34,407 nt of DNA from Verrucomicrobiota bacterium (GTDB taxonomy: Bacteria > Verrucomicrobiota > Verrucomicrobiia > Limisphaerales > J093), in NCBI GenBank assembly GCA_012517065.1, contig JAAYVR010000233.1, positions 1 to 34,407 on the forward strand, in the 5' to 3' direction. Both the position numbers and the translations under genes were made by a program. The notes beneath the pieces were generated by a model. It made no database searches. It saw only the letters and a list, made by a program, of their open reading frames with translations, and was not told the origin of the DNA. How positions within the stretch are numbered: position 1 is the first letter of the stretch; each line of letters starts with the position of its first letter. Positions 5,263 through 33,941 of this stretch are shown one piece after another.

Positions 5263-8154
5263 ATGAAGAAAACAAAAAACACCGCAACCCAAGTTGTCCT
5301 ACCCGTTGCCTGCACGGTGGCCATTGGCATACCAGGGGCAGCGGTAATGCCGGCGGCGGCCCAGGAGACAGCTCCTGCCGAGCCGGAGCGCATGGAGAAA
5401 ATCATCGTCACCGGTTCGAACATCGAAAGCGCAGATGCAGCCGGCACTTTGACGGTAAGTGTCATGGACATCGCCGAACCGGCCAACGTCGGACGCCCAG
5501 CCCTCGCTGACACACTCCGAGTGCGCGCCCCCCAATATGCAGGCGGCACGGGTGCGATCAACCCGGGCTTTGGGAATGGTGGCGACGGCAGCTCACAACT
5601 GTCCCTGCGTGGTCTGCCTGCCAACGCAACCCTGCTGCTCGTCAACGGAAGACGAACCAGCACAAGCGACCTTAACCTGATCCCAGAAGCAGCAATCGAG
5701 AAAATCGAGATTCTGCAGGACGGTGCTTCTGCCATTTACGGATCGGATGCCGTTGCAGGCGTCGCCAATATCATCCTCAAAGAGGAATACACAGGTGCCA
5801 AGATTGGCGCCTATTATGCGAATACCACCGACACAGACGTCAGCGATTGGAAGACGAGCGTGTTGGTCGGCGAAACCACCGAAAAATCCAAATTCGTGAT
5901 GGCCGCCGAATACGGCAAGTCCAACGATCAACTCAGCGTTGACCGCGAGCGATCCAAACCGCTGCCGTTCCAGACTTCACAGACGTCCAACCCGGGTTTG
6001 TTCCTCAACAACGCTTCACTGCCTGCCGACGAGATCGCCCTGCGTTGGAGCTTGGTGCCAACCAACACAAGGGGTCTCACCAACATCACGCAGATACCCG
6101 AGGGGTTCAATCCAATCGCCACTGTCAAGGTGCCAGAGGGCGCCAGCCGCACTGCAGTGCGAAATGCAGCCGAGGCCGAGCTGAACGCCGCGCTCCCTCC
6201 TGACTCGCCCGTGCGTTACGGTGGCAACCCGTCGGTGATGCCGGGAATGGACCCTGGTTTCCCGTATCCGTACTATACAACTGCGTATCGCCCGCACGAG
6301 AGATACTCGGTTTACATGTCCGGTTCTCACCAGTTGTACGGCGAGAACCTCGAGGCTTTCATGCTGGGCTACTATGCGGCGAACAGCTCCAGTTTCCAAC
6401 TGGCGCCGTCTCCATTGTCCGGAGTTGAAATGCCAGCTTCAAATTACTGGTACCAACTCCTCTTCCCCGAAGCCGCTGCGACCGGCACGCCGCTTCGGGT
6501 TTCCTACCGGCCAGTCGAGCTTGGCCCGCGCATTTTCTACAACGACTTCGAAAACACTCACCTCGTCGCCGGGCTCAGAGGCAGAATCGCCGAAAGCTCA
6601 TGGAAGTGGGAAACCGCTTTCACGTGGGACCGGACAGAAATCGATGAAACCCAGACAGGCGGCGTTCTCAGAGACGTGTATGTGGACCTCTTGAGTCTCA
6701 GCACGCCCGACGCATGGAACCCGTTCGGTTACACGCCAATCGGCGGTTCAAGCGTAGTCAATCCACGGAGCCTCGTGGACCAAATCTACGGCGAGGCAAC
6801 GATCAAGACTGTCGCAGAACTGCTCAGTTGGGATGCCAAGATCAACGGCGAAATCTACAAGCTGCCGGGCGGCGCACTGGCTGGTGCCGTTGGAACAGAG
6901 TACCGTCGCGAGACTCTGGACTTCGCACCAGACTACGCCATCCAGCACGGTTCGGTCTTCCCATTCAACGTCCAGCAGCCGCTCTACGCCGCACGGGACA
7001 GCATGGCTGTTTTCGGCGAAGTCCTCGTTCCGATATTTGGCGAAGACCTGACCCTGCCCGCGTTCAAGTCTTTCTCGGTGTCAGCAGCGCTCAGGTACGA
7101 GGATTACAGTGACGTTGGTGACACCGGCGTCAAACCGCGCGTGAGCTTCAAGTGGCAGCCAATCGACCACCAGTTCACAATTCGCGGATCGTACGCCGAA
7201 GGCTTCATCGCGCCGGGATTCTTCGACCTGTACCAACTGCCAGGCGAGGACTACATCGAGGTGTTAAACCCGTACACAAAGTTGCGTGAGCAGCCCGAGA
7301 ACGCAGTCCTCACAATCGGCAACCCAGAGTTGAAACCGATCGACGCCGAAAACTGGACCATTGGTGGCGTATTCGAACCTGACTTCCTGAAAGGGTTCAA
7401 GATCGCACTCGATTACTATCGTATCAAGCAGACTGGCATTCCGTTCGCCAGCGCACAATACATAGTCAACCAGTGGTACAACTACAACCCCAACGATCCT
7501 CGGGACCCGACCAACCCGTTCGGACCAAACGCCGGGCGCAGTGCGGCCAATCCGCTCGGGGCGCAGGTTGAACTGTCACCCACTGACGAGATCAGCCAGA
7601 TCCGGAACGTCGGCCCGATCAACACCGGCGAACGCCTCACTGACGGTATCGATATCACTGTCTCACAAAGGATCGAGACAAGTATCGGCGCGTTCACGCT
7701 CACCGGCATCGCCACGCGCATCCTGACGTTCGAGCAGGAGAACTTCCCGGGCGCAGGCACAATCGATTACCTCGGCAAGTACTGGGGTCCGGGCGCTGCA
7801 CTCGAAGACGTCAGCTTCCCAGAATGGCGTGCCAATATCGCCCTGACATGGGAATACGAACGTTGGACCGCTGCCATCGGCTGGAACTATGTTGATGGTT
7901 ATACCGAAGACGTCACGCAGCAGAACTTCGAAGCCGAAGATTCTGAGCCGCGTGATGTGAGGTCTTACATGACCTTTGACGTCCGCCTCGGATACAAGAT
8001 TCCGTGGATCGAAGGCCGGTTGATGGCCGGTGTTAACAACGTGTTCGATGAACAACCGCCGCTGGTCGAGAGCAGCTTCGAAAACGCCTATGACAGGCGC
8101 CTCGCTGACATCCGCGGGCGGATGTACTTCGTCGAGTTCACCAAAGAATTCTAA
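5263..8154 (+). CDS. TonB-dependent outer-membrane receptor
   Basis: A 963-residue outer-membrane barrel with an N-terminal plug, taking up a substrate with energy from TonB/ExbBD. Residues 1-34 form a signal peptide ending AAAQ. The TonB-box-like EKIIVTGSNI lies at about 45-54. The plug spans roughly 55-175, with SLRGLPANATLLLVNGRR and the IEILQDGASAIYGSDAVAGVANIIL signature region of the family. The rest is barrel with alternating aromatic strands, including GSYAEGFIAPGFFDLYQLPG and INNVFDEQPP-like segments near the end. The last residue is Phe (FVEFTKEF), as expected for BAM-dependent insertion. There is no STN or carboxypeptidase-like extension. The start lacks a clear Shine-Dalgarno. A terminator follows at 8174. 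The substrate is not evident; no transporter or SusD partner is adjacent. Confidence 0.93.
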   Translation: MKKTKNTATQVVLPVACTVAIGIPGAAVMPAAAQETAPAEPERMEKIIVTGSNIESADAAGTLTVSVMDIAEPANVGRPALADTLRVRAPQYAGGTGAINPGFGNGGDGSSQLSLRGLPANATLLLVNGRRTSTSDLNLIPEAAIEKIEILQDGASAIYGSDAVAGVANIILKEEYTGAKIGAYYANTTDTDVSDWKTSVLVGETTEKSKFVMAAEYGKSNDQLSVDRERSKPLPFQTSQTSNPGLFLNNASLPADEIALRWSLVPTNTRGLTNITQIPEGFNPIATVKVPEGASRTAVRNAAEAELNAALPPDSPVRYGGNPSVMPGMDPGFPYPYYTTAYRPHERYSVYMSGSHQLYGENLEAFMLGYYAANSSSFQLAPSPLSGVEMPASNYWYQLLFPEAAATGTPLRVSYRPVELGPRIFYNDFENTHLVAGLRGRIAESSWKWETAFTWDRTEIDETQTGGVLRDVYVDLLSLSTPDAWNPFGYTPIGGSSVVNPRSLVDQIYGEATIKTVAELLSWDAKINGEIYKLPGGALAGAVGTEYRRETLDFAPDYAIQHGSVFPFNVQQPLYAARDSMAVFGEVLVPIFGEDLTLPAFKSFSVSAALRYEDYSDVGDTGVKPRVSFKWQPIDHQFTIRGSYAEGFIAPGFFDLYQLPGEDYIEVLNPYTKLREQPENAVLTIGNPELKPIDAENWTIGGVFEPDFLKGFKIALDYYRIKQTGIPFASAQYIVNQWYNYNPNDPRDPTNPFGPNAGRSAANPLGAQVELSPTDEISQIRNVGPINTGERLTDGIDITVSQRIETSIGAFTLTGIATRILTFEQENFPGAGTIDYLGKYWGPGAALEDVSFPEWRANIALTWEYERWTAAIGWNYVDGYTEDVTQQNFEAEDSEPRDVRSYMTFDVRLGYKIPWIEGRLMAGVNNVFDEQPPLVESSFENAYDRRLADIRGRMYFVEFTKEF

Positions 8155-8173: not shown

Positions 8174-8203
8174 GGGCCGGCTCAGAAATGGGCCGGCCCT
8201 TTT
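8174..8203 (+). terminator. Rho-independent terminator after the TonB receptor gene
   Basis: GGGCCGG (8174-8180) pairs with CCGGCCC (8193-8199) across a 12-base loop and is followed by TTTTC. It begins 20 bases after the receptor stop codon. It argues that the next small gene is transcribed separately. Confidence 0.65.
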
Positions 8204-8295
8204 CATTTGACAAAAAACCGCCTTGCGTCAGTCGCAGAATTGATGCATGGTTGGTTACCATGAAAGCCAGATTAAGCAAAATGGAGTCGCGCTCG

Positions 8296-8625
8296 ATGTT
8301 TCGGTTCCTCGTTTGTGCCATCTGTGTTTTTCTCGCCGGGGCAGTGGCTGTGGCTGGCCAGGCTAAGAAGACCTCCGATACCAAGAAGAACCAGCCCAAG
8401 GCATCCGCGGTTCACAAGTCCAAGAAAACAGCCAAGACCACAAAGTCCGTCAAGGTCACCGGCTCAAATATCAGCTATCAGGTGAAAGAAGGGGCCGATA
8501 TGGCGGATGCGCCGCTTAACCTGACAGTGATCGACGTGAGCAAGGCCGAGAACCGCGGTTACAGTCGCGTGATGGATATCCTCCGCCGTGATCCGAGGGT
8601 TTATCCGTCATACCGCGGCTATTAA
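8296..8625 (+). CDS. Small secreted Lys-rich protein with TonB-box/plug-start motif
   Basis: A 109-residue protein: signal peptide at 1-23 (hydrophobic core CAICVFLAGAVAVAG), a Lys/Thr/Ser-rich linker at 24-51, then a C-terminal segment with KVTGSNI (53-59), LNLTVIDVSKAENRGYSRVMD (74-94) and a tyrosine-containing end. That C-terminal part matches, in the same order, the start of the receptor encoded just upstream (IIVTGSNI, then TVSVMDIAEPANVGRPALAD). It stops where a plug domain would normally continue. I chose ATG 8296 because GGAG lies 9 bases before it and the signal peptide starts there; ATG at 8260 or 8281 is also possible. It could be a real periplasmic partner or decoy for TonB, or the remnant of a second receptor gene. 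Function is not known. Confidence 0.65.
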   Translation: MFRFLVCAICVFLAGAVAVAGQAKKTSDTKKNQPKASAVHKSKKTAKTTKSVKVTGSNISYQVKEGADMADAPLNLTVIDVSKAENRGYSRVMDILRRDPRVYPSYRGY

Positions 8626-9053
8626 CTCAGCGCGGCGCAGCCGCAACCAAAGGCCCGGCCAGCACGGACTCAGCCATGCCTTCACTCCGGCGAAATCTCC
8701 GGGTTGTGCGGGGCGAATTCGTGGCCCTCGGCGAGCAACAAGTTGAGGTGGGTGAACGAATCTCTGCAAGACAAGAGCCCTCCACGACCGCAGAGTTCGT
8801 GATCCTTATGCAAGTTTTTTGACATAGTAGTACGGAAATCTCGTCGGCCGACTGACCAGACACACGGGTTTGTTTCTCGCGTACTTGGGTCTTTCGTGGT
8901 TGATTTTGCCCTATCCATTTGCGGTTGTGACCGCAGCAGGTGACAAAAGGTGGAAGGAGGTTAACCACGGAGAAAACAGAGAAGTTTGGCCCGATGGGAT
9001 GACTTGCATCGGCTGCGCAAATACTCGAAAGTGGCGGTGTTATAGTGCACCTG
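8626..9053. other. Gene-free stretch with remnants of ACCACGGAGA-type repeats
   Basis: No convincing gene on either strand. Near its start a GCGGCGCAGCCGCAACCAAAG segment resembles the core of repeat type A. At 8884-8908 lies CTTTCGTGGTTGATTTT and at 8961-8983 TTAACCACGGAGAAAACAG. Such pairs are, as I recall, common scars around GxxExxY-type genes in Planctomycetes and Verrucomicrobia. Here they face outward with 50 bp between them and no such gene. Confidence 0.4.
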
Positions 9054-10259
9054 ATGAAAACCAATGCTTTTTCTGCCGTTCTGCTGTCATTGGCGATTAT
9101 CGCATCGCCGGTTTTTGCCGGCGATCAACCGTCTCCAGTCCAATTGCCAAAAAGCCCCCCGCCCCCGGGCGTCGAGCTTGCCCAGACAATTTCAATGGTC
9201 ACCGGCGTGGCGATCTCACCGTTGCTTGGTGTAAGCGCGGTCGGGGCGTGGAAGTATTTCAAGACGCCAGCGGCCCGGCGTGCGGGCTTGCCGTGGTTTG
9301 CTCAGCCGTGGTTTTTTGTGCCAGCCTTGATCCTTGTGATGGCTGTTTTTTCGAAGGACTCTCTCGGGCCTGTGATACCTACGGCGCTAAAGAAGCCGTT
9401 TGATTTGGCTGAGTTGATCGAGAACAAACTCAGCGCCCTGGTTGCGGCGGGCGCGTTTCTGCCATTCATCGTTTCAGTATTCCCCAACGCCGCGGTTACG
9501 GATTCAACCGCTGGCGGGGCGCTTGTCTGGGCGGCGATAGACACGGCTCAACTGGGCAATTTGTTGCTTACACCGTTCGCAGTCGCCGCGTTCGCAATTG
9601 TCTGGCTCGCTTCACACGCAATCAACATTCTCATCTTGATCAGTCCGTTTGGGACCGTGGACGCCGCGCTCAAGGGATTCCGGTTGTTCATGCTTTCGAC
9701 CGTCGCAGTGACCTCGTTTGCAAACCCGTATGTGGGCGCAGCGTGGGCGCTGGTCATAATCTTGATCTGTTATCTGCTTGCGGGCTGGTCTTTTCGGATG
9801 CTGGTCTTCGGCACGGTGTTTTCGTGGGACCTCCTCACCGCCGGGCGCAAGCGGTTTGTGCCGGGCGTATCCGGCCTGAGCGCATTCACAAGCCGGAGGA
9901 TACAGAAGGTTCCAGTTCGTACTTACGGGCAGCTCGAGCTGGATGAGCAGGGCCGGCTGGTTTTCACTTACCGGCCATGGCTGGTGCTTCGCGCCAAAAC
10001 TGTTGTGTTGCCGACATCCGGTCTTGCCGTGGGGCGTGGGTTCCTCAACCCGTGCCTACTCGCTGTTCATCATGATTCCGCGCGCGCTTTGTTCGCATTC
10101 CCGCCCCGTTGCCGAACCCACGAGGAATCGCTGGCGCAGATTTGTGGCTGTTCCGAAGTGCGCGACGTTGGGCTGCGCGGTCTTTGGAGGTGGTTGCGGG
10201 AACTGTTCGGATTCCGTGGCAGTTCTCAACCTGAGGCCAACATTTTGGCCTCGGTTTGA
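9054..10259 (+). CDS. Polytopic membrane protein of unknown function
   Basis: A 401-residue protein I do not recognise. It begins with a signal-like helix (residues 1-22, ending VFAG), has a Pro-rich segment (PKSPPPPG), then about five to six further hydrophobic helices between residues 45 and 255 (among them PWFFVPALILVMAVF, ALVAAGAFLPFIVSVF, LLLTPFAVAAFAIVWLA and AAWALVIILICYLLAG). A soluble C-terminal region of about 140 residues, rich in Arg and Leu, includes TSRRIQKVPVRTYGQLELDEQGRL-like sequence and probably faces the cytoplasm. The start is set at ATG 9054; a GTG lies three codons upstream. There is no clear ribosome binding site and no operon partner. Transport or signalling roles are equally possible. 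Confidence 0.75.
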   Translation: MKTNAFSAVLLSLAIIASPVFAGDQPSPVQLPKSPPPPGVELAQTISMVTGVAISPLLGVSAVGAWKYFKTPAARRAGLPWFAQPWFFVPALILVMAVFSKDSLGPVIPTALKKPFDLAELIENKLSALVAAGAFLPFIVSVFPNAAVTDSTAGGALVWAAIDTAQLGNLLLTPFAVAAFAIVWLASHAINILILISPFGTVDAALKGFRLFMLSTVAVTSFANPYVGAAWALVIILICYLLAGWSFRMLVFGTVFSWDLLTAGRKRFVPGVSGLSAFTSRRIQKVPVRTYGQLELDEQGRLVFTYRPWLVLRAKTVVLPTSGLAVGRGFLNPCLLAVHHDSARALFAFPPRCRTHEESLAQICGCSEVRDVGLRGLWRWLRELFGFRGSSQPEANILASV

Positions 10260-23044: not shown

Positions 23045-26000
23045 GTGCGGTTCTTGAAGGTCATCTTGGGATGCGCGTTTCTGGTTCTGGCCGCAGTCAG
23101 GACGTTGTGCGGGGGTGCGATCGGCGAGGAACAAGACTCGCTTTACCCGTTGTCATCAAACGCCAGTGAATTGACCGGCGCACTGGCAGCGGCGGGGATT
23201 CCGGTGGAAGCTGGGGATGAATCGGACGGTGTGGTACCGGGGCAGTTCATAGTGTTGTTTCGCGGGGGGATGGGCCCGAGTCGCCAAGTTTCAGATGTAG
23301 CCGGGGCATTGTCGGGCAAGGCGGTCATCAGGCGTTTGCCCGGAGTAGAATCAGGGCGATGGAGTCTGGCGGGCGGGGGGCGTGCATCGGTGTTTGCACG
23401 GCTTGCATTGGTTGAGTTGGTTGGAGACGGCGCAGAATCCGCACAGGTCCTTGGGGTGTTGGCCAAGCATCCGGACGTGTTGAGTGTCGAGCCAAACCGG
23501 GTTTTGCGTGTGCATGGTGCGGGGTTGCGGCCGAGATTTCCCAACGACTTTGAGTTTCCGCAGCTATGGAACCTTTGGAATACGGGGCAGAACGGCGGCG
23601 TAACTGGCGCTGACATTTCCGCTCCTGAAGCTTGGTCGGTCACGACCGGCTCGCGCGATGTTGTCGTGGCGGTAATCGATACCGGGGTCGATTTTTTCCA
23701 CCCAGATCTCGAACGCAACATGTGGATCAACGTGGGAGAAATACCCGGCAACGGCATTGATGACGATGGGAACGGTTACATCGATGATCTGTGCGGGTTC
23801 GATTTTGTCTGGAGGGATAGCGATCCGATGGACGACATGATACACGGGACGCATGTTGCGGGGATAATTGGGGCGGTTGGCAACAACACGGTTGGTGTCG
23901 CTGGCGTGGCATGGTCGGTTTCGATAATGGCGCTGAAAGCGTTTGACGAAAAAGGGGAAGGGGAATTGTGGCACGTGATCGAAGCTCTGCATTACGCAGC
24001 GGCGAACGGCGCGCGCATCATCAACGCAAGCTGGGGACAGAAGGAAGACAGCAGGGCGTTGCGCGAAGCGATCGCGGAGCTACGGGACAAGGGGCTTGTG
24101 ATTGTGGCGTCGGCAGGGAACAAGCAAACCGACAAACTGTCTTATCCGGCGGCGTTTCCGGGTGTGATAGCGGTGGCGGCGGTGAACAGTCGGGATGAAC
24201 GGCCGTTCTTTTCGAATCACGGGCCGCGGATCGATGTAGCTGCGCCTGGCGAAAGCGTTTTATCGACCGTGGTGAACAACCGCTACGACTTTCTCAGCGG
24301 GACGTCGATGTCAGCACCACACGTCAGCGGTGTTGCCACGCTTGTATGGTCGATCCGGCCCAATTTCGCCGCGGAACAGGTTGAAGACGTTTTGCGGAAC
24401 GCAGTGGACCCGACGCGCGCGACCGAATATGTCGGCCTTGGCAGGATAAACGCGGCTCGTGCGGTGAGGGTAAATCCGCCGCTCCCGAAAGCGGGTCTTG
24501 ATTTGCCGTCGGTTTTGCTTGGGCGGGTTGACCTGAAAGGCACGGCGTCGGGGGAATACTTTGCAGGATACCGGCTTGACTGGGGCTGTGGGAACTACCC
24601 GACGAACTGGACGACGATCGGCACTGGGTCTGTGCCCGTGGAAAAAGGCGTTTTGTTGTCCGGGTTTCGAACAGATTCGTTGGCGGAAGGAAGCTATGTA
24701 TTTCGTTTGACGGTGTGGGACACCTATGGCCAGGAAGCTGTCGCACGCGCCGTGAGCACGGTGCGTAACGTGGCGCTGAGCCGGCCAATGGACAATGACG
24801 TGTTGCGCGCGGGCGATCTGGTGACTGTCGAAGGAACCGTTTTCGGCGCTGGACGAACCTACAGAATCGAATATGGCGCGGGTGCACGGATGAAAGAATG
24901 GCTCAGGGCAGGCATCGAGCTCGCAAATGACGGGCTAGAAAACGTCGTGGATGGTGTACTCGGCTGGTGGGACACAACCTTGGCTCGGACCAACGAGTTC
25001 TACACGCTCAGGCTCATTGTAATGGCAGGCGACGAGGTCGTGGCCGAGTCCCGATCACAATTGATTTTCCTTGACGGACAGATTCGATCCGGCTGGCCCA
25101 AGTACGTTCCCACAGCCGGCAATTACCCGACCAACGACTGGCGTGAGGTGACAGTTGTTGATATCGACAATGATGGCCTGAAAGAAATTTTGCGCGTGGA
25201 CGCGGGCGACGATGGCGACAAACCGGCCGTGTTGCGCGTTTATCAACCGGACGGGACACTGAAGTGGGCGCGCGAACTTACCGCCGGCGATCCCTCTTAT
25301 GACATACCGGTGGCTGGCGACGTCGATGGCGACGGCTTTTCTGAAATCTTCGTTGATGTTGGCGGTTCCCTGTTCGCTTTGCGTCACGATGGATCGCCAA
25401 TGCCCGGCAATTGGCCGGTGCTACTGGACGTTCCGAAACTCGGCAAGGTGCTGGCCGACCTCGACGGCGATGGGCGCCTCGAATTGATCGGGTACGCCCA
25501 AATGCCGACATGGACGAGCACTCAGCAAACCCGTCAACTGGTCGTTTACAATGCTGCGGGCCAACTGCTGCAGAAATGGCGTTTACGTGATTTCAGCGCC
25601 AGCGTTGACGTTCCGAGAATGTTCTCAGCCGTGGGCAACTTCGATGACGACCCCGGCCTCGAAATCGTCGCTGTGGACGGCGGGTCAGACCTTGTGATGT
25701 TTGACATTGGGAAAGCCGACGCGCCTGTCTGGCGCGCGCGTGTCAACGGGTCTCTCGTTTCATCGCCTGTCGTTGGCGACATTAACGGCGACGGGAAGGT
25801 TGAAATCGTTGCTGGAGTTTACGACGCCGCATCGAAAGGCCAGCCCGGGATGGCTGGCGGCGTTTACGCGTGGGACCGGCAAGGCATGCTGCTGCCCGGG
25901 TGGCCTGTGTTAATAGATCAGTCGTTTCCGTTTGCACCTGCTTTGGCCGACCTTGATGGCGACAAGCGACTCGAGATTATCATCAGCTCGCAGGGCTTGG

Positions 26001-28672
26001 CGCTGCATGCTCTTCGGTGGGATGGATTTGATCTCCCCGGCTGGCCTGTCAAACCGCCCGCGGGTTTGAAACTGGCCTCCAGCCCCGTCGTGGGCGACAT
26101 CAATGGAGACGGGCTACCGGACGTGGTCGCGGCGTGCTTCGGGGTCAGTCTCCAAGTGGCAATGAACGGGGAGGTCTCGAAGCTGGGCGGGCTCTGTGCG
26201 TGGAACGCTGACGGCCTGCCAATAGATTTGAACGAACACGCGCAATTGTCGGGCTTGATGTTGGAGCATGTGCTGATGAAGTCTGCCCCGCCCGTGCTTG
26301 CGGACCTTGATGGAGACGGGATTCTGGATGTTGTGGCAACCACAATAGACGACATGGCGTTGCCTCAAACGTTGTCGAGAGCGTATCGAAAGAACCGTTA
26401 CACGATTTCAGTTTGGGCTCTGGCCAACGGCGGGATGTCGCCGAACGTTTACCCATGGCCAATGCTCCGACGCGATCCGCAACACACAGGCTATGTTGAA
26501 CCGGAAAAACCCGTGAATCGCCCCCCGCAGCTTGATCGAATCCCGGATCAGATAGTGCGAGTGGGAACGGCATTTTTCCCGATCGAACTGGACCGCTACG
26601 TTTTCGACCCGGACAACAAACCAGCGGAGCTGATCTGGGAAACCGAAGGCAACGTTGAATTGCAGGTTACAATTGGGGAGAACCGGACGGCTTTTGTGAA
26701 CGTGCCAAACCCCGATTGGTCGGGACGCGAGGTCATTCGGTTCATTGTCCGGGACCCGGCAGGTTCGATTGCTGAAACTTCGGCTTCGTTTGAGGCGCGG
26801 GTGGACTATGACCCGCCCGTCGCTGTCGCAGACACCGTCACATGTCTCGAAGACGAATCAATCGAAATAGATGTGTTGGCCAACGACACTCACCCTCATG
26901 GGCTTCCACTGGCGCTTCTGGACTTCAGCCGCCCGGGCTATGGCAGCCTCGAACGAACCAACCAGAACTCCCTCCGATACACGCCATCCAAGGATTACTT
27001 TGGCCCGGACAGCTTCGCTTACACGATCAGCGATGGCCAGGGCGGAATCGCAATGGCAAGAGTCGCAATCGAAGTGCTGCCTGTGGCAGACCCACCCGTG
27101 GCAGAACCAGACCGGGCAATTACCAACGAGGATGAACCCGTTGAGATCGATGTGCTGGCAAATGACCATGACCCGGACGGGGATCACCTTGTGATTCGGT
27201 GGTTTGGGCAGCCTGAGCATGGGAGCGTGGTTATGCTCGAAAACACGGCGTTGGGCTATGAGCCCACACCCGATTTCAGCGGCACCGACAGGTTCACTTA
27301 CCGAGTCTCCGATGCGACAGGCAACGAAACCGAAGGCGAGGTGACCGTCATGGTCAAACCGGTCAATGATCCGCCCACAGCCAAATCCTTTTCGTTCACC
27401 ATCAACCGGAATACACAACAGACCGTGATGTACCAGGCCACTGACAACGACGGTGACACCCTGACGTTTAGAGTCGTCGAAGGCCCTCAACACGGCGAGC
27501 TGTGGAGTTATCCTGACATCGCCACGTATTACCCCAAGAAAGGTTACAGTGGCGTTGACAGCTTTACTTATGCGGCCAGTGATGGCGTGTCAGAAAGCGC
27601 CCCGGCTACGGTGTCAATCACCGTGCTTGATGTCAACAACCCGCCGATTGCATTGGACGCGGCTATGACAACAAAAGTTGGACGCGCCTTGCCGATCGAA
27701 CTTGAAGCGCGTGACGCCGATGAAGACCCGTTCGTGTTCACAATACTCAGCCTGCCCGAGCACGGCTTGCTGACCGGCAGCGGATCAAATTATGTTTATT
27801 CGCCGGACCCGGGTTACATCGGGGAAGACCAGTTTTTTTTCCGTGCAGAAGACGCGAAGGATGCAGGCGCACCGGCAACTTTCACAATCACGGTGACGGA
27901 CCAGAACACTGCGCCTGTTGCAACAAACTCGTGGGTCGAGGTGCTGATTGACACGCCGAAGGAATTCGCGCTCGAAGCCAAAGACCAAGAAAACGATGAT
28001 TTGAGCTTCAGGCTGCTGAGCCTTCCAGCACACGGCACTCTGAGCGGAGTGCCACCGAATCTGACGTATTCCCCAGAACGCGGTTTTGTCGGGCCGGACA
28101 AATTCACATTTCTCGTCAGTGACGGCGAGTTGGAGAGCGAGCCGGCAACAGTATCGATTGTTGTGATCCTGCCCAACCATGCGCCGGATGTTAAAGACCA
28201 AACCGTTGTAGCTGCGGCAGAGAAAAGTTCGCCCGTGCCGTTTGCAGTCAAAGACGAAGACGGGGACAACCTCAAGGTGGTGATTCTGAAAGGACCGCAG
28301 AACGGGCTGGTCAGCGGGATTGGGACGAACTATTTGTACACGCCAAAACCGGGGTTCCTCGGGCTTGACTGGTTTACCTATCGGGTGTGGGACGGGACTG
28401 TTTACAGCGATGTAGCGACTGTCACTTTGAGCGTGCAATCGCACCCGCAGTTCATGGCGCCGAAGTTCGAGTTTGTGCGGTTGCTTGATGGGGAGACGGT
28501 ACAGTTTCTGATTCGCGCAACGCCCGGGTCCAAGCTCGAGCTTCTCGGCTCAACGAATCTCACTGAGTGGGTGTCGATCACAAATCTGACGGCGCATGAC
28601 GAACTCGTCCCGATTACTGACACCGTAGGGGAGGAGTCGGGCATGCGTTTTTATCGTGCACGGTCTGAATAA
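23045..28672 (+). CDS. Giant secreted subtilase with FG-GAP propeller and Ig-like repeats
   Basis: An 1875-residue exported protease. A signal peptide (1-24) is followed by an I9-like prodomain (about 62-155) and a peptidase S8 domain (about 200-470) with Asp212 in VIDTGVD, His267 in HGTHVAG, Asn359 in SAGN and Ser421 in SGTSMSAPH, so the triad is complete. Residues about 700-1105 hold eight FG-GAP/VCBS-type calcium loops (DIDNDG, DVDGDG, DLDGDG, DINGDG and variants), likely a beta-propeller. From about 1158 there is a putative Ig domain, then six repeats of about 90 residues starting with (P/A)PxA and ending in VxITV-like strands, of the bacterial Ig/cadherin-like type. The last 70 residues form a module ending RFYRARSE that is shared with the convergent gene. 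The GTG start lacks a clear ribosome binding site. It is probably cell-surface or released. Confidence 0.92.
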   Translation: MRFLKVILGCAFLVLAAVRTLCGGAIGEEQDSLYPLSSNASELTGALAAAGIPVEAGDESDGVVPGQFIVLFRGGMGPSRQVSDVAGALSGKAVIRRLPGVESGRWSLAGGGRASVFARLALVELVGDGAESAQVLGVLAKHPDVLSVEPNRVLRVHGAGLRPRFPNDFEFPQLWNLWNTGQNGGVTGADISAPEAWSVTTGSRDVVVAVIDTGVDFFHPDLERNMWINVGEIPGNGIDDDGNGYIDDLCGFDFVWRDSDPMDDMIHGTHVAGIIGAVGNNTVGVAGVAWSVSIMALKAFDEKGEGELWHVIEALHYAAANGARIINASWGQKEDSRALREAIAELRDKGLVIVASAGNKQTDKLSYPAAFPGVIAVAAVNSRDERPFFSNHGPRIDVAAPGESVLSTVVNNRYDFLSGTSMSAPHVSGVATLVWSIRPNFAAEQVEDVLRNAVDPTRATEYVGLGRINAARAVRVNPPLPKAGLDLPSVLLGRVDLKGTASGEYFAGYRLDWGCGNYPTNWTTIGTGSVPVEKGVLLSGFRTDSLAEGSYVFRLTVWDTYGQEAVARAVSTVRNVALSRPMDNDVLRAGDLVTVEGTVFGAGRTYRIEYGAGARMKEWLRAGIELANDGLENVVDGVLGWWDTTLARTNEFYTLRLIVMAGDEVVAESRSQLIFLDGQIRSGWPKYVPTAGNYPTNDWREVTVVDIDNDGLKEILRVDAGDDGDKPAVLRVYQPDGTLKWARELTAGDPSYDIPVAGDVDGDGFSEIFVDVGGSLFALRHDGSPMPGNWPVLLDVPKLGKVLADLDGDGRLELIGYAQMPTWTSTQQTRQLVVYNAAGQLLQKWRLRDFSASVDVPRMFSAVGNFDDDPGLEIVAVDGGSDLVMFDIGKADAPVWRARVNGSLVSSPVVGDINGDGKVEIVAGVYDAASKGQPGMAGGVYAWDRQGMLLPGWPVLIDQSFPFAPALADLDGDKRLEIIISSQGLALHALRWDGFDLPGWPVKPPAGLKLASSPVVGDINGDGLPDVVAACFGVSLQVAMNGEVSKLGGLCAWNADGLPIDLNEHAQLSGLMLEHVLMKSAPPVLADLDGDGILDVVATTIDDMALPQTLSRAYRKNRYTISVWALANGGMSPNVYPWPMLRRDPQHTGYVEPEKPVNRPPQLDRIPDQIVRVGTAFFPIELDRYVFDPDNKPAELIWETEGNVELQVTIGENRTAFVNVPNPDWSGREVIRFIVRDPAGSIAETSASFEARVDYDPPVAVADTVTCLEDESIEIDVLANDTHPHGLPLALLDFSRPGYGSLERTNQNSLRYTPSKDYFGPDSFAYTISDGQGGIAMARVAIEVLPVADPPVAEPDRAITNEDEPVEIDVLANDHDPDGDHLVIRWFGQPEHGSVVMLENTALGYEPTPDFSGTDRFTYRVSDATGNETEGEVTVMVKPVNDPPTAKSFSFTINRNTQQTVMYQATDNDGDTLTFRVVEGPQHGELWSYPDIATYYPKKGYSGVDSFTYAASDGVSESAPATVSITVLDVNNPPIALDAAMTTKVGRALPIELEARDADEDPFVFTILSLPEHGLLTGSGSNYVYSPDPGYIGEDQFFFRAEDAKDAGAPATFTITVTDQNTAPVATNSWVEVLIDTPKEFALEAKDQENDDLSFRLLSLPAHGTLSGVPPNLTYSPERGFVGPDKFTFLVSDGELESEPATVSIVVILPNHAPDVKDQTVVAAAEKSSPVPFAVKDEDGDNLKVVILKGPQNGLVSGIGTNYLYTPKPGFLGLDWFTYRVWDGTVYSDVATVTLSVQSHPQFMAPKFEFVRLLDGETVQFLIRATPGSKLELLGSTNLTEWVSITNLTAHDELVPITDTVGEESGMRFYRARSE

Positions 28673-28679
28673 TCGGCGT

Positions 28680-31600
28680 TCACTCCTGAACCACGCGATA
28701 GAATCTGCTCGGCCGCTCCGCTGACACAGGGTCCGCGATTGTTATCAACCGGGTTTCGCTCTGCACCGGAAACTCTGCGAGGACTTGCCAATTGGCGTCC
28801 GTGAGGGAATCGCAATACTCGACCTTGTACCGCCAGCCGGCCGCAGTATTGAACTTGAAGATCAAAACTGGTTCGGTGTCACCACTGATTACTGTTGATT
28901 GGACCACTGGCTCGGGAGCGACACCCGGCAGCACAAGAACGCTGACGTGATCACTCACAGTCGATGCGCCGTCATCCGCGGTCAGTTTAAGAACGTAATC
29001 GCCCGGGACCGAGAATCTGGCGCCGGTCATCCACAGTGTTGGATCAAGAAAAGCCACTTCGCCCGGACCCGAGACTTTCTCCCAACGCACCGTGACGACC
29101 CCAGGCGGATTGGGTAAGCCGTCGTCGCTGAAGCGCCCCAACAGGAAAGTTACCTGCCCCACGGTGTTTGTGAGGTCTGGACCGGCTTCGACGGTTGGCG
29201 GTCGATTGTCCGGAAAAACGGTTGCATCGAGCTGAAAATCGAAGCTGAGATCGGTGCTGTTGGCGGCGGATTGGTGGATTTCGATGGCAACAATATTTGT
29301 TCCCGACCGAAGGATTGACGGGTCAACCAGGCGCTCGAAGAACGTTGATTCGTCAGCGCCGCCGACTGCGACGGAAGCGGTGGTTCTGTAGTTGATGGGT
29401 CCTTCGGGCATGTTGTCGCGGTACGCCTCACGTCCATTGATCCACACCACTGCACCATCATCGCGCAACAGCTTGGCTGTGAGTGAAGTCACGGCGGCGG
29501 GGTCGGAAACCACAAAGGTTGTTCTGAAGTAGTAAGTGATGAACTTGTTGTTCGCATCTGGGCCATAACCGAGCACTGTCACCTCATCGTTTTCCGGGGA
29601 ACCAACGCTGTAACCCAACTGTGCATTTCCGGATTTCCATGAGCTGTCAGCGAAACCCAAAGCAACCCAATTCGTTCCTTGGTCTGAGCCGTCATCAAGA
29701 TACCGCCATTTTGATCCCGCAGGGAGAAGTGTAATCGGACCGCTTGGTCTGGTGACGGTGATGACAATTCGATCAGAAGACTCGACCTGGCTGTCTGAAG
29801 CTGAAAGCTCGAAGATGTAGATGCCGGTGCCGGGCAATTGGGCAGTTGTTGCAGCAGAGTGCGGGTTGGTGAACAGCACATTCGCAGCGCCGCTCACAAG
29901 ACGCCATGTGATGTCGAGCATGCCAGGCGGCGACGGCAAGCCATCGTCTTTGACAGACCCGTTCAGTTGGATTTCAAGTGGGAATGCGGTTGCACTCAGC
30001 TCGGCGTCGGGCCCTGCGTTGACAATCGGCGGGCGGTTGCCGTCGTTCTCGAGACCGTGCGATGTTGTGCCATTGCTTGCGCGCCAGTTAATCGGATCGT
30101 TGCCATACGCAGCGGGGTTTATCCGTTCCAGAGATGAGCCGGTCCCGGCGGCGTCTGCAGGCCATGGCGCCTTGTCATTGTAACGCACGGCATCGACTGT
30201 CACGTAGGGCACCACCAGTGTGCCGTCGTCTGCGAGGTTGGGTTCGTCCGGGCATTGCAACTCTATCATTTCGCCGTTGTCTTGAAGAACGCCTGTGTAT
30301 GGTCCAAGAACGGGAACATTGGCTGGCACCGGACTGCCCGAGCGGAACGCGTCGGGGTCGGTCGCGGTTATAACGAGCAAGCCGTGCGGGGCGATTTCGG
30401 CATTTCTTGGGAACGAGTATCCGATGCCGCTAATACGCCATGTGTTGGTTGGGAACTGCGGATCGTAGAGTTTGACGGTCTGGGCGGTGATATTCTTGAG
30501 TTCGATGAACTCGATGCCACCGGGAGGCGGCCAATAGTGGATTTCGTTGATGACGACCGGGCCAATGCGCGGTCCGACATTTTCAGAGCCGAGTGTTGGT
30601 TGACGTTGGGGGGTGAAATGCACTTCGCCCACGCTGTTTGTGAAACGGCCGAACGTCATACCACTCGAAGCAGCGCCAAAACTGAAACCGTCGCTGTATC
30701 CCGTAAGTTCACCGTCTCTCGTCGCCGAGTACAGATAAACCTGATCGCCGGCAGAATTGAGCGAGAAGCTCGGGTCCACGCCCGGGGTTGGATTGAAGTC
30801 CTTCTCGGTGAACACGAGGAAACCGTATGGAGCAATCTGAGTCCCATTTGGAATCCGGAATTTTTTCGGGGCCGATCGATCGTCCGTGAGATACCATCCA
30901 CTCAAATCAACATATTCAGCGGTTGGGTTGTACAACTCGATGGCATCGGTCTCGGGCGCATCTGAATGAGAGAGGCATTCATTGACAACTACCGGCGCAA
31001 CGCCGGCAACCGGATCGTCCGTGCCCGGCGATCCGCCGATTCTCGAGCTCGCGCGCCAATTGTCCGGGTTGTCCGGGTCAGGATTCGAATTCGGATCAGC
31101 CGGAACGAGTGAAAAGCCGACGCCGTCGGCCGCGGCGGGCCATGACGGGGCATCCTTGTATTCGACGGAAAACAAAGGCGTTCCGACCGCATGCACGATC
31201 GTGATTCGTTCTCCGCCGTTCGACAGATTGCCATCATAAACGCCGTCGATTCGCACCCCCGGGTAACGATGGGCAAAACTGACCGGGTCGGCCACAAGAA
31301 CGACGAATTGCCCAGGCCCGAGTCGGGTGCCGCGTGGGAATTCGTACTTGACGCCGTTTGTGAACCGGACACCGCTCAGATCGATCTCGAACGGGTTGGC
31401 GTTTTTCAGTTCTATGAACTCGAAGGCGTCGCCGTCGATATCGCCTTCGTCCGGCGGATGGTACATGATTTCTGTTACCAGCAGGTTCGTGTACGTTTGG
31501 ATGACGGTGAAATCGGCCTCGTTAAGCGCGCTCCAGTTTGTTCCGGACAGAACCCTTGATTTCACAAAAGTAGATTCGTTGATCAAGAGGGGTTTTGTGT

Positions 31601-33941
31601 AGGGAATGGCCGTCGGTGAAACCGCTCCGCCACGAACACGGGGATCAGAACCGTCCCGTGTGTAATAGATCGTTCCCGAAGGCGCGCTCATGCTGAGGGC
31701 AAACCCGGCGTTGACGGCACCGCCATGTTTGCTGAACGTCGGCGCTGTGATGTTTGGATACAGCCCCTTTCCTTTGAGTTGATTAAGGACAACCTGAGTC
31801 CGATTAGGGAAAAAACTGGTGAGGATGGCATTGACGGCTGCGACCCAGTCATCGCGCGTTCGCGGTGTGGAACGCTTCGAGTCGCCCCAGCGCGCAGATT
31901 CCCCGACAATAGCGCGGTCGATCTCGTTTTTCCGGCGCATAAGCCGGGCCGTGCAGGCTTCAGGAGTGAGCGCCCCGCCATTGAAGAAATGTTTGTGGAC
32001 ACGGTCTGCCATGGCGATTTTGAATTCCGCGTTTATCCACATTTTCTGCCAAATCCATTGGGGGTTACTGGTGCTGACCGACGAATCGCCGGCCGTAAAT
32101 GGGCCGATCCTGTTGGCATTGACGTCCAGCAGCGTGTGCTCGGAATCGTGAGCGACGAAACTGAACCCGTCCGCACCGAGCCTGTTTCGAATTGCATAGA
32201 AATTGTTTGGGCTGCTGTTTCCGAGGAAGTTGGATATGGGCGCGTCGAGGTTCCCGGTGTAGAGAATCACGAGCATGTAATCGGCCAGGTTCTCCAGATC
32301 GATGTACTTTGGATAATCCGGGTTGCGCGTGCCATTTGGATTGTTCCCTTGAATGAGTTCGTAGGCGGCATCGTTGGTCAGCCCCGCTCTGCAAATGTTG
32401 TAGAGGCGCGTCCAATTGGTCATGTTGCCGTCTGTGGCGCCGATTGTGTAACCGTTATCGGGGGAGACCTTTATGACGTCGTAATCTTCTTTCTTGCCGC
32501 CGAAGTACGATGCGCCGTAGGAAGCTTCGGGGCGTTCGCAGGTGTTGTAGAGGCCCCAGTACTGGCCGTTGATGTAAAGGTGACAAAAATCGCCGCGCTC
32601 ACTGTTGTGTCCCATGTCGAGCTGTGTGTCGCGGCTGAACTGGTCGCGCAGGAACGTGCATCGGGAATCGCCTTCAAAACTCCAGGAGTAATTCTGTGCG
32701 GTGCGAAGATCGAAACAGTCGAAACGATCGGCTGCATTGTCGCCAAAAACAGGGTACTCGAGTTTGGGCGCGCCATACACTTCGCGGAAGAACAGGCGAA
32801 ACGCGTGTTTGGGGTTGTTGCCGCTTCGACTGTACCCTCCGCGGATGCGGATGCCGCAGTTGACTTGGAATCCTTGCCGCCCGTCAGGATGGATCAATTC
32901 AAGCGAACATTTTCGTTCCCATGCGCGACCGTCTTGGCCTGGGTTGGCGTAAATGCCGCTCGAGGTGCTGAAAAGGTCGTTGAGGTCCATGACCACAGAA
33001 AACGACGGTATCGTGACGAGATCGCTCTTGATGGTGTCGCGGTACTTGGGATTGTCCACGATATCGGGGTCCATGCCATAGTCAATGACCTGGCCGGTAC
33101 TCATTGTGCCCTTGTTTGGCCAGCCAGGCCACGGCGGCGACCCTGTGGGCGATTGGCGAATGATGTCATCAACAAAGAGATAAGTGTGCGTGTCGATGTT
33201 GGATGGCTGATAGCCTTCCTTGAACGCGGCTGCGCGAACGACAATGGTGCGATCGATTCGGACTGGACCCGAATACACGATCCCGTTTGTTGCGGTGGCC
33301 GTCAGATTCGGAGCCGATCCGTTCGTGGTATAAACGATTGTCGCGTCTGCCGTCGCCGTGGTGATGACAAGGTCGAAGGCATTGGTATAAAAGCCGCGGT
33401 CATGGCTGAATTTTGTGTCTGACACGAAAGAATTGTAGCCGCCCACGTTTGCCGCCCGCGGCGTCGGTTGCGGGAAATAATAAAGCCTGCCCAACCGAAG
33501 CCCGTAAGAGACATCAACGAACTGCTTCGGGTAAGCAGGCGCGAATTCCGAAACAACCTCGCCTTCAGGGCCAACCAACGCCAGATACTCGCCGTCCGCG
33601 TCCAACGCGAAGTTCGTGTGCAATTCCGCTCCTGCAATCGCGCGATCTTTGCCCGAAGCGAAAACGAGCAGATAAGAACCGGCTGCGAGGTTCGTGGAAG
33701 GAAAAACCCACTTGGAAAGGTTGTTGGTGCTGTCGGTCAAACTCCATCCGCCGAGGTTAACTGCGTCCGGGCCTGCGTTGTACAATTCAATCCAGTCCGG
33801 ATAATCGCCGTTGCTGTCCTTGATTGTTTTGCCGTTGGCTGCCATGAATTCGTTGATGTAAACGTCGGCATCAGCCAAAGCGGTCAATTGCGCCGCTATC
33901 AAAATCAGCATCGGGAAAACCCTGTTGGCCGCTGAAATCAT
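28680..33941 (-). CDS. Giant secreted lamin-tail/CotH kinase-like protein
   Basis: A 1753-residue exported protein. Order of domains: signal peptide (1-25); lamin-tail domain (about 26-130, INEFMAAN...DWIELYN); chitobiase C-terminal-like beta domain (about 165-250); CotH kinase-like domain (about 310-727, with GIRIRGGYSRSGNNPKHAFRL, FLRDQFSRD and HLYINGQYWGLYNTCE); second chitobiase-type domain (about 735-820); three more lamin-tail domains (about 820-985, 985-1120 and 1129-1290); a PKD/Ig-like domain (about 1303-1400, NRPPIVNAGPD); a galactose-binding-like domain (about 1402-1578); a second PKD-like domain (about 1579-1680); and the C-terminal module ending RFYRVVQE. CotH proteins in spore formers phosphorylate coat proteins; here substrate and activity are unknown. 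Its end lies 7 bp from the end of the subtilase gene. Confidence 0.9.
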   Translation of the reverse strand: MISAANRVFPMLILIAAQLTALADADVYINEFMAANGKTIKDSNGDYPDWIELYNAGPDAVNLGGWSLTDSTNNLSKWVFPSTNLAAGSYLLVFASGKDRAIAGAELHTNFALDADGEYLALVGPEGEVVSEFAPAYPKQFVDVSYGLRLGRLYYFPQPTPRAANVGGYNSFVSDTKFSHDRGFYTNAFDLVITTATADATIVYTTNGSAPNLTATATNGIVYSGPVRIDRTIVVRAAAFKEGYQPSNIDTHTYLFVDDIIRQSPTGSPPWPGWPNKGTMSTGQVIDYGMDPDIVDNPKYRDTIKSDLVTIPSFSVVMDLNDLFSTSSGIYANPGQDGRAWERKCSLELIHPDGRQGFQVNCGIRIRGGYSRSGNNPKHAFRLFFREVYGAPKLEYPVFGDNAADRFDCFDLRTAQNYSWSFEGDSRCTFLRDQFSRDTQLDMGHNSERGDFCHLYINGQYWGLYNTCERPEASYGASYFGGKKEDYDVIKVSPDNGYTIGATDGNMTNWTRLYNICRAGLTNDAAYELIQGNNPNGTRNPDYPKYIDLENLADYMLVILYTGNLDAPISNFLGNSSPNNFYAIRNRLGADGFSFVAHDSEHTLLDVNANRIGPFTAGDSSVSTSNPQWIWQKMWINAEFKIAMADRVHKHFFNGGALTPEACTARLMRRKNEIDRAIVGESARWGDSKRSTPRTRDDWVAAVNAILTSFFPNRTQVVLNQLKGKGLYPNITAPTFSKHGGAVNAGFALSMSAPSGTIYYTRDGSDPRVRGGAVSPTAIPYTKPLLINESTFVKSRVLSGTNWSALNEADFTVIQTYTNLLVTEIMYHPPDEGDIDGDAFEFIELKNANPFEIDLSGVRFTNGVKYEFPRGTRLGPGQFVVLVADPVSFAHRYPGVRIDGVYDGNLSNGGERITIVHAVGTPLFSVEYKDAPSWPAAADGVGFSLVPADPNSNPDPDNPDNWRASSRIGGSPGTDDPVAGVAPVVVNECLSHSDAPETDAIELYNPTAEYVDLSGWYLTDDRSAPKKFRIPNGTQIAPYGFLVFTEKDFNPTPGVDPSFSLNSAGDQVYLYSATRDGELTGYSDGFSFGAASSGMTFGRFTNSVGEVHFTPQRQPTLGSENVGPRIGPVVINEIHYWPPPGGIEFIELKNITAQTVKLYDPQFPTNTWRISGIGYSFPRNAEIAPHGLLVITATDPDAFRSGSPVPANVPVLGPYTGVLQDNGEMIELQCPDEPNLADDGTLVVPYVTVDAVRYNDKAPWPADAAGTGSSLERINPAAYGNDPINWRASNGTTSHGLENDGNRPPIVNAGPDAELSATAFPLEIQLNGSVKDDGLPSPPGMLDITWRLVSGAANVLFTNPHSAATTAQLPGTGIYIFELSASDSQVESSDRIVITVTRPSGPITLLPAGSKWRYLDDGSDQGTNWVALGFADSSWKSGNAQLGYSVGSPENDEVTVLGYGPDANNKFITYYFRTTFVVSDPAAVTSLTAKLLRDDGAVVWINGREAYRDNMPEGPINYRTTASVAVGGADESTFFERLVDPSILRSGTNIVAIEIHQSAANSTDLSFDFQLDATVFPDNRPPTVEAGPDLTNTVGQVTFLLGRFSDDGLPNPPGVVTVRWEKVSGPGEVAFLDPTLWMTGARFSVPGDYVLKLTADDGASTVSDHVSVLVLPGVAPEPVVQSTVISGDTEPVLIFKFNTAAGWRYKVEYCDSLTDANWQVLAEFPVQSETRLITIADPVSAERPSRFYRVVQE

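Follow-up and report, generated by a model that had tools for sequence, protein, structure and literature searches.

The short reading frame that follows a TonB-dependent receptor gene in the window (the whole stretch of 34,407 nucleotides of Verrucomicrobiota DNA analysed here) almost certainly belongs to a real conserved protein family, because strong selection acts on stand-alone genes of this kind, which turn up repeatedly across one Verrucomicrobiota order. The family is old, has a hallmark insertion and is kept alongside one receptor family, and it is apparently undescribed, being derived from receptors and new in its stand-alone form. We propose, with a probability of roughly 45%, that its members are periplasmic and in some cases lipid-anchored Ton-box proteins which, through a predicted binding to TonB, tune this receptor family.

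Gene structure and protein layout

The initial annotation had placed the mini-protein gene at 8296–8625. The reading frame is real, but the start at 8296 is not conserved: in the orthologous locus of a same-genus genome (L002/L003, 91% identical) ATT stands at the position of the 8296 ATG, whereas the ATG at 8260 is present in both, and for this reason the upstream start is preferred. The 8260 start (MKARLSKMESRS...) also agrees with the MK(T/I)... starts of other members, and the protein is probably 121 amino acids long (8260–8625). The L002/L003 locus has the same receptor upstream of the mini-gene and the same gene for a membrane protein of ~400 amino acids downstream. In the window, that downstream position is taken by a 404-residue hydrophobic protein (9045–10259), which has no Pfam match and is conserved in L002. 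Elsewhere in the window lie two giant converging genes, one for a subtilase with bacterial Ig/cadherin-like repeats (23045–28672, 1875 amino acids) and the other for a CotH-kinase protein with lamin-tail domains (28680–33941, 1753 amino acids).

Table 1. Features of the receptor and mini-protein locus, in window coordinates.
Feature	Position	Strand	Basis or remark
TonB-dependent receptor of 963 aa, from the family partnered with the mini-gene	5263..8154	+	Pfam and homologue searches; only plug match found in genome
Intrinsic terminator stem, 11 pairs, then TTTTCATTTG	8174..8199	+	between receptor and mini-gene
Stand-alone mini-protein gene, probably 121 aa plus stop	8260..8625	+	conserved; dN/dS 0.12 overall, 0.05 in core
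Putative signal peptide, aa 1-34, with a basic start, a hydrophobic stretch and AVAVAG	8260..8361	+	by eye; relatives' alignment; AF2 helix 10-36
Lys/Ala-rich linker, aa 35-63	8362..8448	+	evolves fast, dN/dS 0.37; modelled with low confidence
Ton-box-like motif VKVTGS, aa 64-69	8449..8466	+	TGS is the family's most conserved part
Mini-specific spacer NISYQVKEGADMADAPL	8467..8517	+	sets motif and helix 5-6 residues further apart than in any of the receptors examined
Equivalent of plug strand 1 and helix 1, NLTVIDVSKAENRGYSRVMDILRR, aa 87-110	8518..8589	+	AlphaFold model, match to solved receptors, joint alignment
C-terminal tail DPRVYPSYRGY, 11 residues	8590..8622	+	relatives' alignment

The mini-protein is probably exported: reading by eye and regular expressions picked out, among the family members, a basic start, a hydrophobic stretch and sites of the AxA-like or lipobox type. 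The Lys-rich linker described ahead of the VTGS motif is borne out, and the tail ends in RGY in close relatives and has an Arg at the matching place in most others. AlphaFold places strands at and after VTGS and helices at the position of the plug helix, with low confidence (two models, pLDDT 64–68), which would fit a segment that takes up its fold only on a partner.

A terminator between receptor and mini-gene, and with it separate control of the two genes, had also been suggested. The 11-pair stem is kept in L002, and a hairpin with a T-tract lies between receptor and mini-gene in eight of the ten other pairs examined, so that separate transcription appears to be the usual arrangement.

A conserved family related to receptor N-termini

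The mini-protein had been described as mimicking the start of the adjacent receptor. The likeness holds (IIVTGSNI...TVSVMDIAEPANVGRPALADTLR in the receptor, VKVTGSNI...NLTVIDVSKAENRGYSRVMDILR in the mini-protein) and profiles agree with it, the next-best matches of profiles of the relatives being the N-termini of TonB receptors, and the same profiles matching solved receptors at the plug start. A recent copy of the neighbour, in contrast, is not what we find, but a diverged family with an insertion of its own. The protein ends right after the first plug helix, before a plug could fold as had been claimed, and neither it nor the DNA at 8626–9060 downstream of its gene contains a C-terminal beta-barrel (PF00593); with no barrel and no full plug, it does not qualify as a TonB-dependent receptor. 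The Pfam Plug model (PF07715) gives no match to it at E ≤ 10 and matches 3 of 32 relatives weakly (best 4.4e-4). In a joint alignment VKVTGS falls on the Ton-box motif of the receptors, contact with TonB being a prediction, and the first position of the motif is usually not acidic in the mini-proteins. Classical Ton boxes often have an acidic residue at this position.

Searches with a single sequence and then with profiles over 320 genomes of the order, mostly incomplete assemblies and all from one phylum, recovered conserved stand-alone homologues as short ORFs in 37 genomes. The members, ~90–130 amino acids long, share one stop point directly behind plug helix 1, and their last residue is mostly Arg. 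Short-ORF matches in 36 genomes had E-values from 1e-31 to 1.7e-12 in the final profile search, receptors appearing only from 1e-9; one further short ORF (G285) ranks among the receptors. The distance from the Gly of VTGS to the helix Gly is 30–34 residues in all 30 aligned mini-proteins and 25–26 in all 46 receptors, owing to an insertion of 5–6 residues after VTGS (typical form IPxxVKRxGxITDG) found in 30/30 of the former and 0/46 of the latter. Such a fixed, discrete insertion argues against repeated recent truncation of receptors, and a tree built on 48 usable columns neither demonstrates nor rejects a single mini-protein clade (AU p 0.34). Beyond the order, 387 genomes sampled across the phylum yielded two short ORFs (G332 and G648), the first of them on the same strand as a receptor ~1 kb upstream.

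A scan of genome contigs for the mini-protein returned only the near relative L002, and tblastn against plasmids, with one consensus-like member as query, gave no match. The window protein is matched by no NCBIfam model at E ≤ 0.01 and by no Pfam model above the cut-off; its matches to PepSY_2, Phage_ASH and DUF2500 lie below the cut-off, mainly in the signal and linker region, and are taken as chance. When 32 members were compared with Pfam and NCBIfam, the only families matched by more than one of them were weak matches to receptor models. No stand-alone protein of the plug-N-terminus kind was found in the open-access literature, subscription journals lying outside that search.

The family varies in its N-terminal part. 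Membrane anchoring appears to differ between members, since some of the signal sequences inspected are of the lipoprotein type (e.g. LVAGC) and others are ordinary (L060, L062, L068, L069, L054). The linkers of about ten relatives (including L056, L064, L070, L073, L078, L082 and L157) contain Cys, often paired, in patterns such as CVC, CKC, CCEDGC, CSECCPDRC and CTDCKNGCKCETGKCQC; these residues might coordinate metal or pair in disulfides. One genome carries a tandem pair of mini-genes, one a strong and one a weak match (G265:C108:77526-78259, L064).

Association with one receptor family

The mini-gene adjoins a homologue of the window receptor in 14 of the 37 genomes, lying downstream on the same strand in 12 and convergent in two more; in G061 a single ORF stands between the two genes, and in G266 two contigs share the receptor, whose last piece precedes the mini-gene. 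In the remaining 23 genomes the mini-gene is unlinked, or not visibly linked, to the receptor. A receptor homologue (E ≤ 1e-40) is present in 32/37 genomes with a mini-gene versus 39/283 without (Fisher odds ratio 40, p 3e-19, with no correction for relatedness). Within the GTDB family the corresponding figures are 9/9 and 0/5, four of the five mini-less genomes having one TonB-receptor match outside the partner family and one having none. Four genomes with close receptor homologues (49–55% identity; G311, G312, G279, G280) gave no mini-gene. At two loci (L062 and L058, in G003 and G066) the neighbouring receptor is split or interrupted by an in-frame stop in these assemblies, possibly through sequencing error or decay.

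The window's own genome (completeness 95%) has one plug-domain match (PF07715), which is the window's receptor, with sensitivity limited by a first-look filter; most relatives with a mini-gene have two to ten such matches per genome. Three TonB_C matches were found in the window's genome. One of them (on C3) lies beside an ExbB-like gene and is the best candidate for TonB, and the other two (on C263 and C72) look more TolA-like from a reading of their neighbours.

This association bears on what the mini-protein acts upon. It could work on the receptor and not on TonB, with strand and helix binding the barrel or plug from the periplasm as an assembly helper, a lock or a surrogate piece of plug. 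The tight link to one receptor family would fit such a role, as would the near-equal conservation of the helix Gly and Leu and the TGS motif, and mini-proteins score higher against the N-terminus of their own neighbour than against other receptors (permutation, p 0.001, shared ancestry not being removed). We nevertheless regard this role as unlikely, though worth keeping in view: the gene is unlinked in many genomes, the protein lacks the length to fold as a plug, its models are of low confidence, and even the full plug of FepA behaves as unfolded in isolation (PMC11658791).

It is rather improbable that the family descends from a receptor N-terminus but has taken up an unrelated secreted job, for instance in metal handling or envelope attachment, the motif being kept for structural reasons. 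The paired linker cysteines, the very basic linker and the several members that are not near a receptor speak for such a job; the linker of the window protein, however, has no Cys, no part of the family is better conserved than TGS, and co-occurrence with the receptor family is accompanied by repeated adjacency. A scan of 20 neighbour genes revealed no common partner besides receptors, with lytic transglycosylases beside three members, arylsulfotransferases beside two, and the rest unrelated. The same scan bears on the idea of a small adaptor that delivers TonB, or an anti-sigma or signalling partner, to the receptor as a variant of cell-surface signalling; a receptor partner and a separate transcription unit are indeed present, but there is no sigma or anti-sigma gene among the neighbours scanned and Pfam finds no signalling domain in the window receptor, and we give this idea very little weight.

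Selection on the mini-gene

Between the window and L002, dN/dS is 0.12 for the whole mini-gene, 0.05 for its core (amino acids 64–121) and 0.37 for the linker, and 0.046 for the C-terminal half (barrel) of the receptor. In eight other measurable pairs the core gave 0–0.21 in seven and 0.38 in one. A search of 8626–9060 with the receptor and a receptor profile found no receptor or barrel remnants. Both dN/dS and synteny point to a gene that works together with the receptor. That the mini-gene shares its C-terminal half with receptor N-termini would speak for a truncated pseudogene of a receptor or a chance ORF, a reading dismissed on the core dN/dS, the lack of downstream remnants, and the stop point and unique insertion common to relatives across the order.

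Proposed mechanism and significance

In the preferred reading, that of a TonB-binding protein, the mini-protein goes back to the opening ~50 residues of a TonB-dependent receptor (the VTGS segment, strand 1 and helix 1). It would hang on a flexible tether rich in Lys and Ala, preceded by a signal peptide or, in some relatives, by a lipobox for anchoring in a membrane. Once in the periplasm, its Ton-box segment would bind the C-terminal domain of TonB and either compete with the partner receptor's own Ton box or prime it; the amount of mini-protein could then set how often that receptor is energised. Export, TonB binding and the direction of the effect on the receptor are thus predicted steps. 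Counting against this reading are the usually non-acidic first position of the motif, the 23 genomes in which the mini-gene does not visibly adjoin the receptor, the close receptor homologues for which no mini-gene turned up, and the low confidence of the models. Ton boxes typically bind with KD values of 1–50 uM. A Ton-box peptide of BtuB alone binds TonB with a KD of 9.4 uM, and the 50 residues after the BtuB Ton box form the force-labile half of the plug (PMC5413942); the retained segment corresponds to the Ton box together with the start of this mechanically weak half, on which TonB pulls. With one receptor and three TonB_C matches in the window's genome, the mini-protein would act there on this one receptor and its TonB, and a need to arbitrate among many receptors cannot explain its presence in that genome. 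More tentatively, a dedicated and genetically separate Ton-box mini-protein may co-evolve with one receptor family and act as a competitive regulator built into TonB-driven transport.

According to a recent review, TonB is far outnumbered by receptors, and how it chooses substrate-loaded ones is called unknown (PMC11658791). A natural protein consisting of little beyond the receptor end that contacts TonB would lend itself readily to this question, and the strain from which the window comes, with a single receptor beside its mini-gene, would be a simple setting. If the proposal is true, part of a membrane receptor would have become an independent, conserved gene, and the Ton system would have a layer of control not described so far.

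Comparison with known systems

TonB-dependent colicins and pyocins are released toxins, not receptors, that carry Ton boxes. The mini-protein shares with them a Ton-box-like motif in a non-receptor protein, and differs in its putative signal peptide and its lack of a toxin domain. In receptors of the FecA/FpvA/HasR type a fused N-terminal signalling domain precedes the Ton box. The mini-protein would likewise be an extra periplasmic element tied to a receptor, but it comes from a separate gene and is not a fused domain, with no sigma or anti-sigma gene among the neighbours scanned. The BtuB Ton-box peptide (PMC5413942) is likewise a free Ton-box segment outside a receptor; it is synthetic, whereas the mini-protein, with binding only predicted, is the product of a conserved natural gene. 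A likeness in layout also exists to the N-terminus of the receptors themselves (Ton box and Plug, PF07715), in the VTGS segment, strand 1, helix 1 and the putative signal peptide, from which the mini-protein differs in lacking the rest of the plug and the barrel and in possessing the insertion of 5–6 residues, a longer basic linker and a gene of its own.
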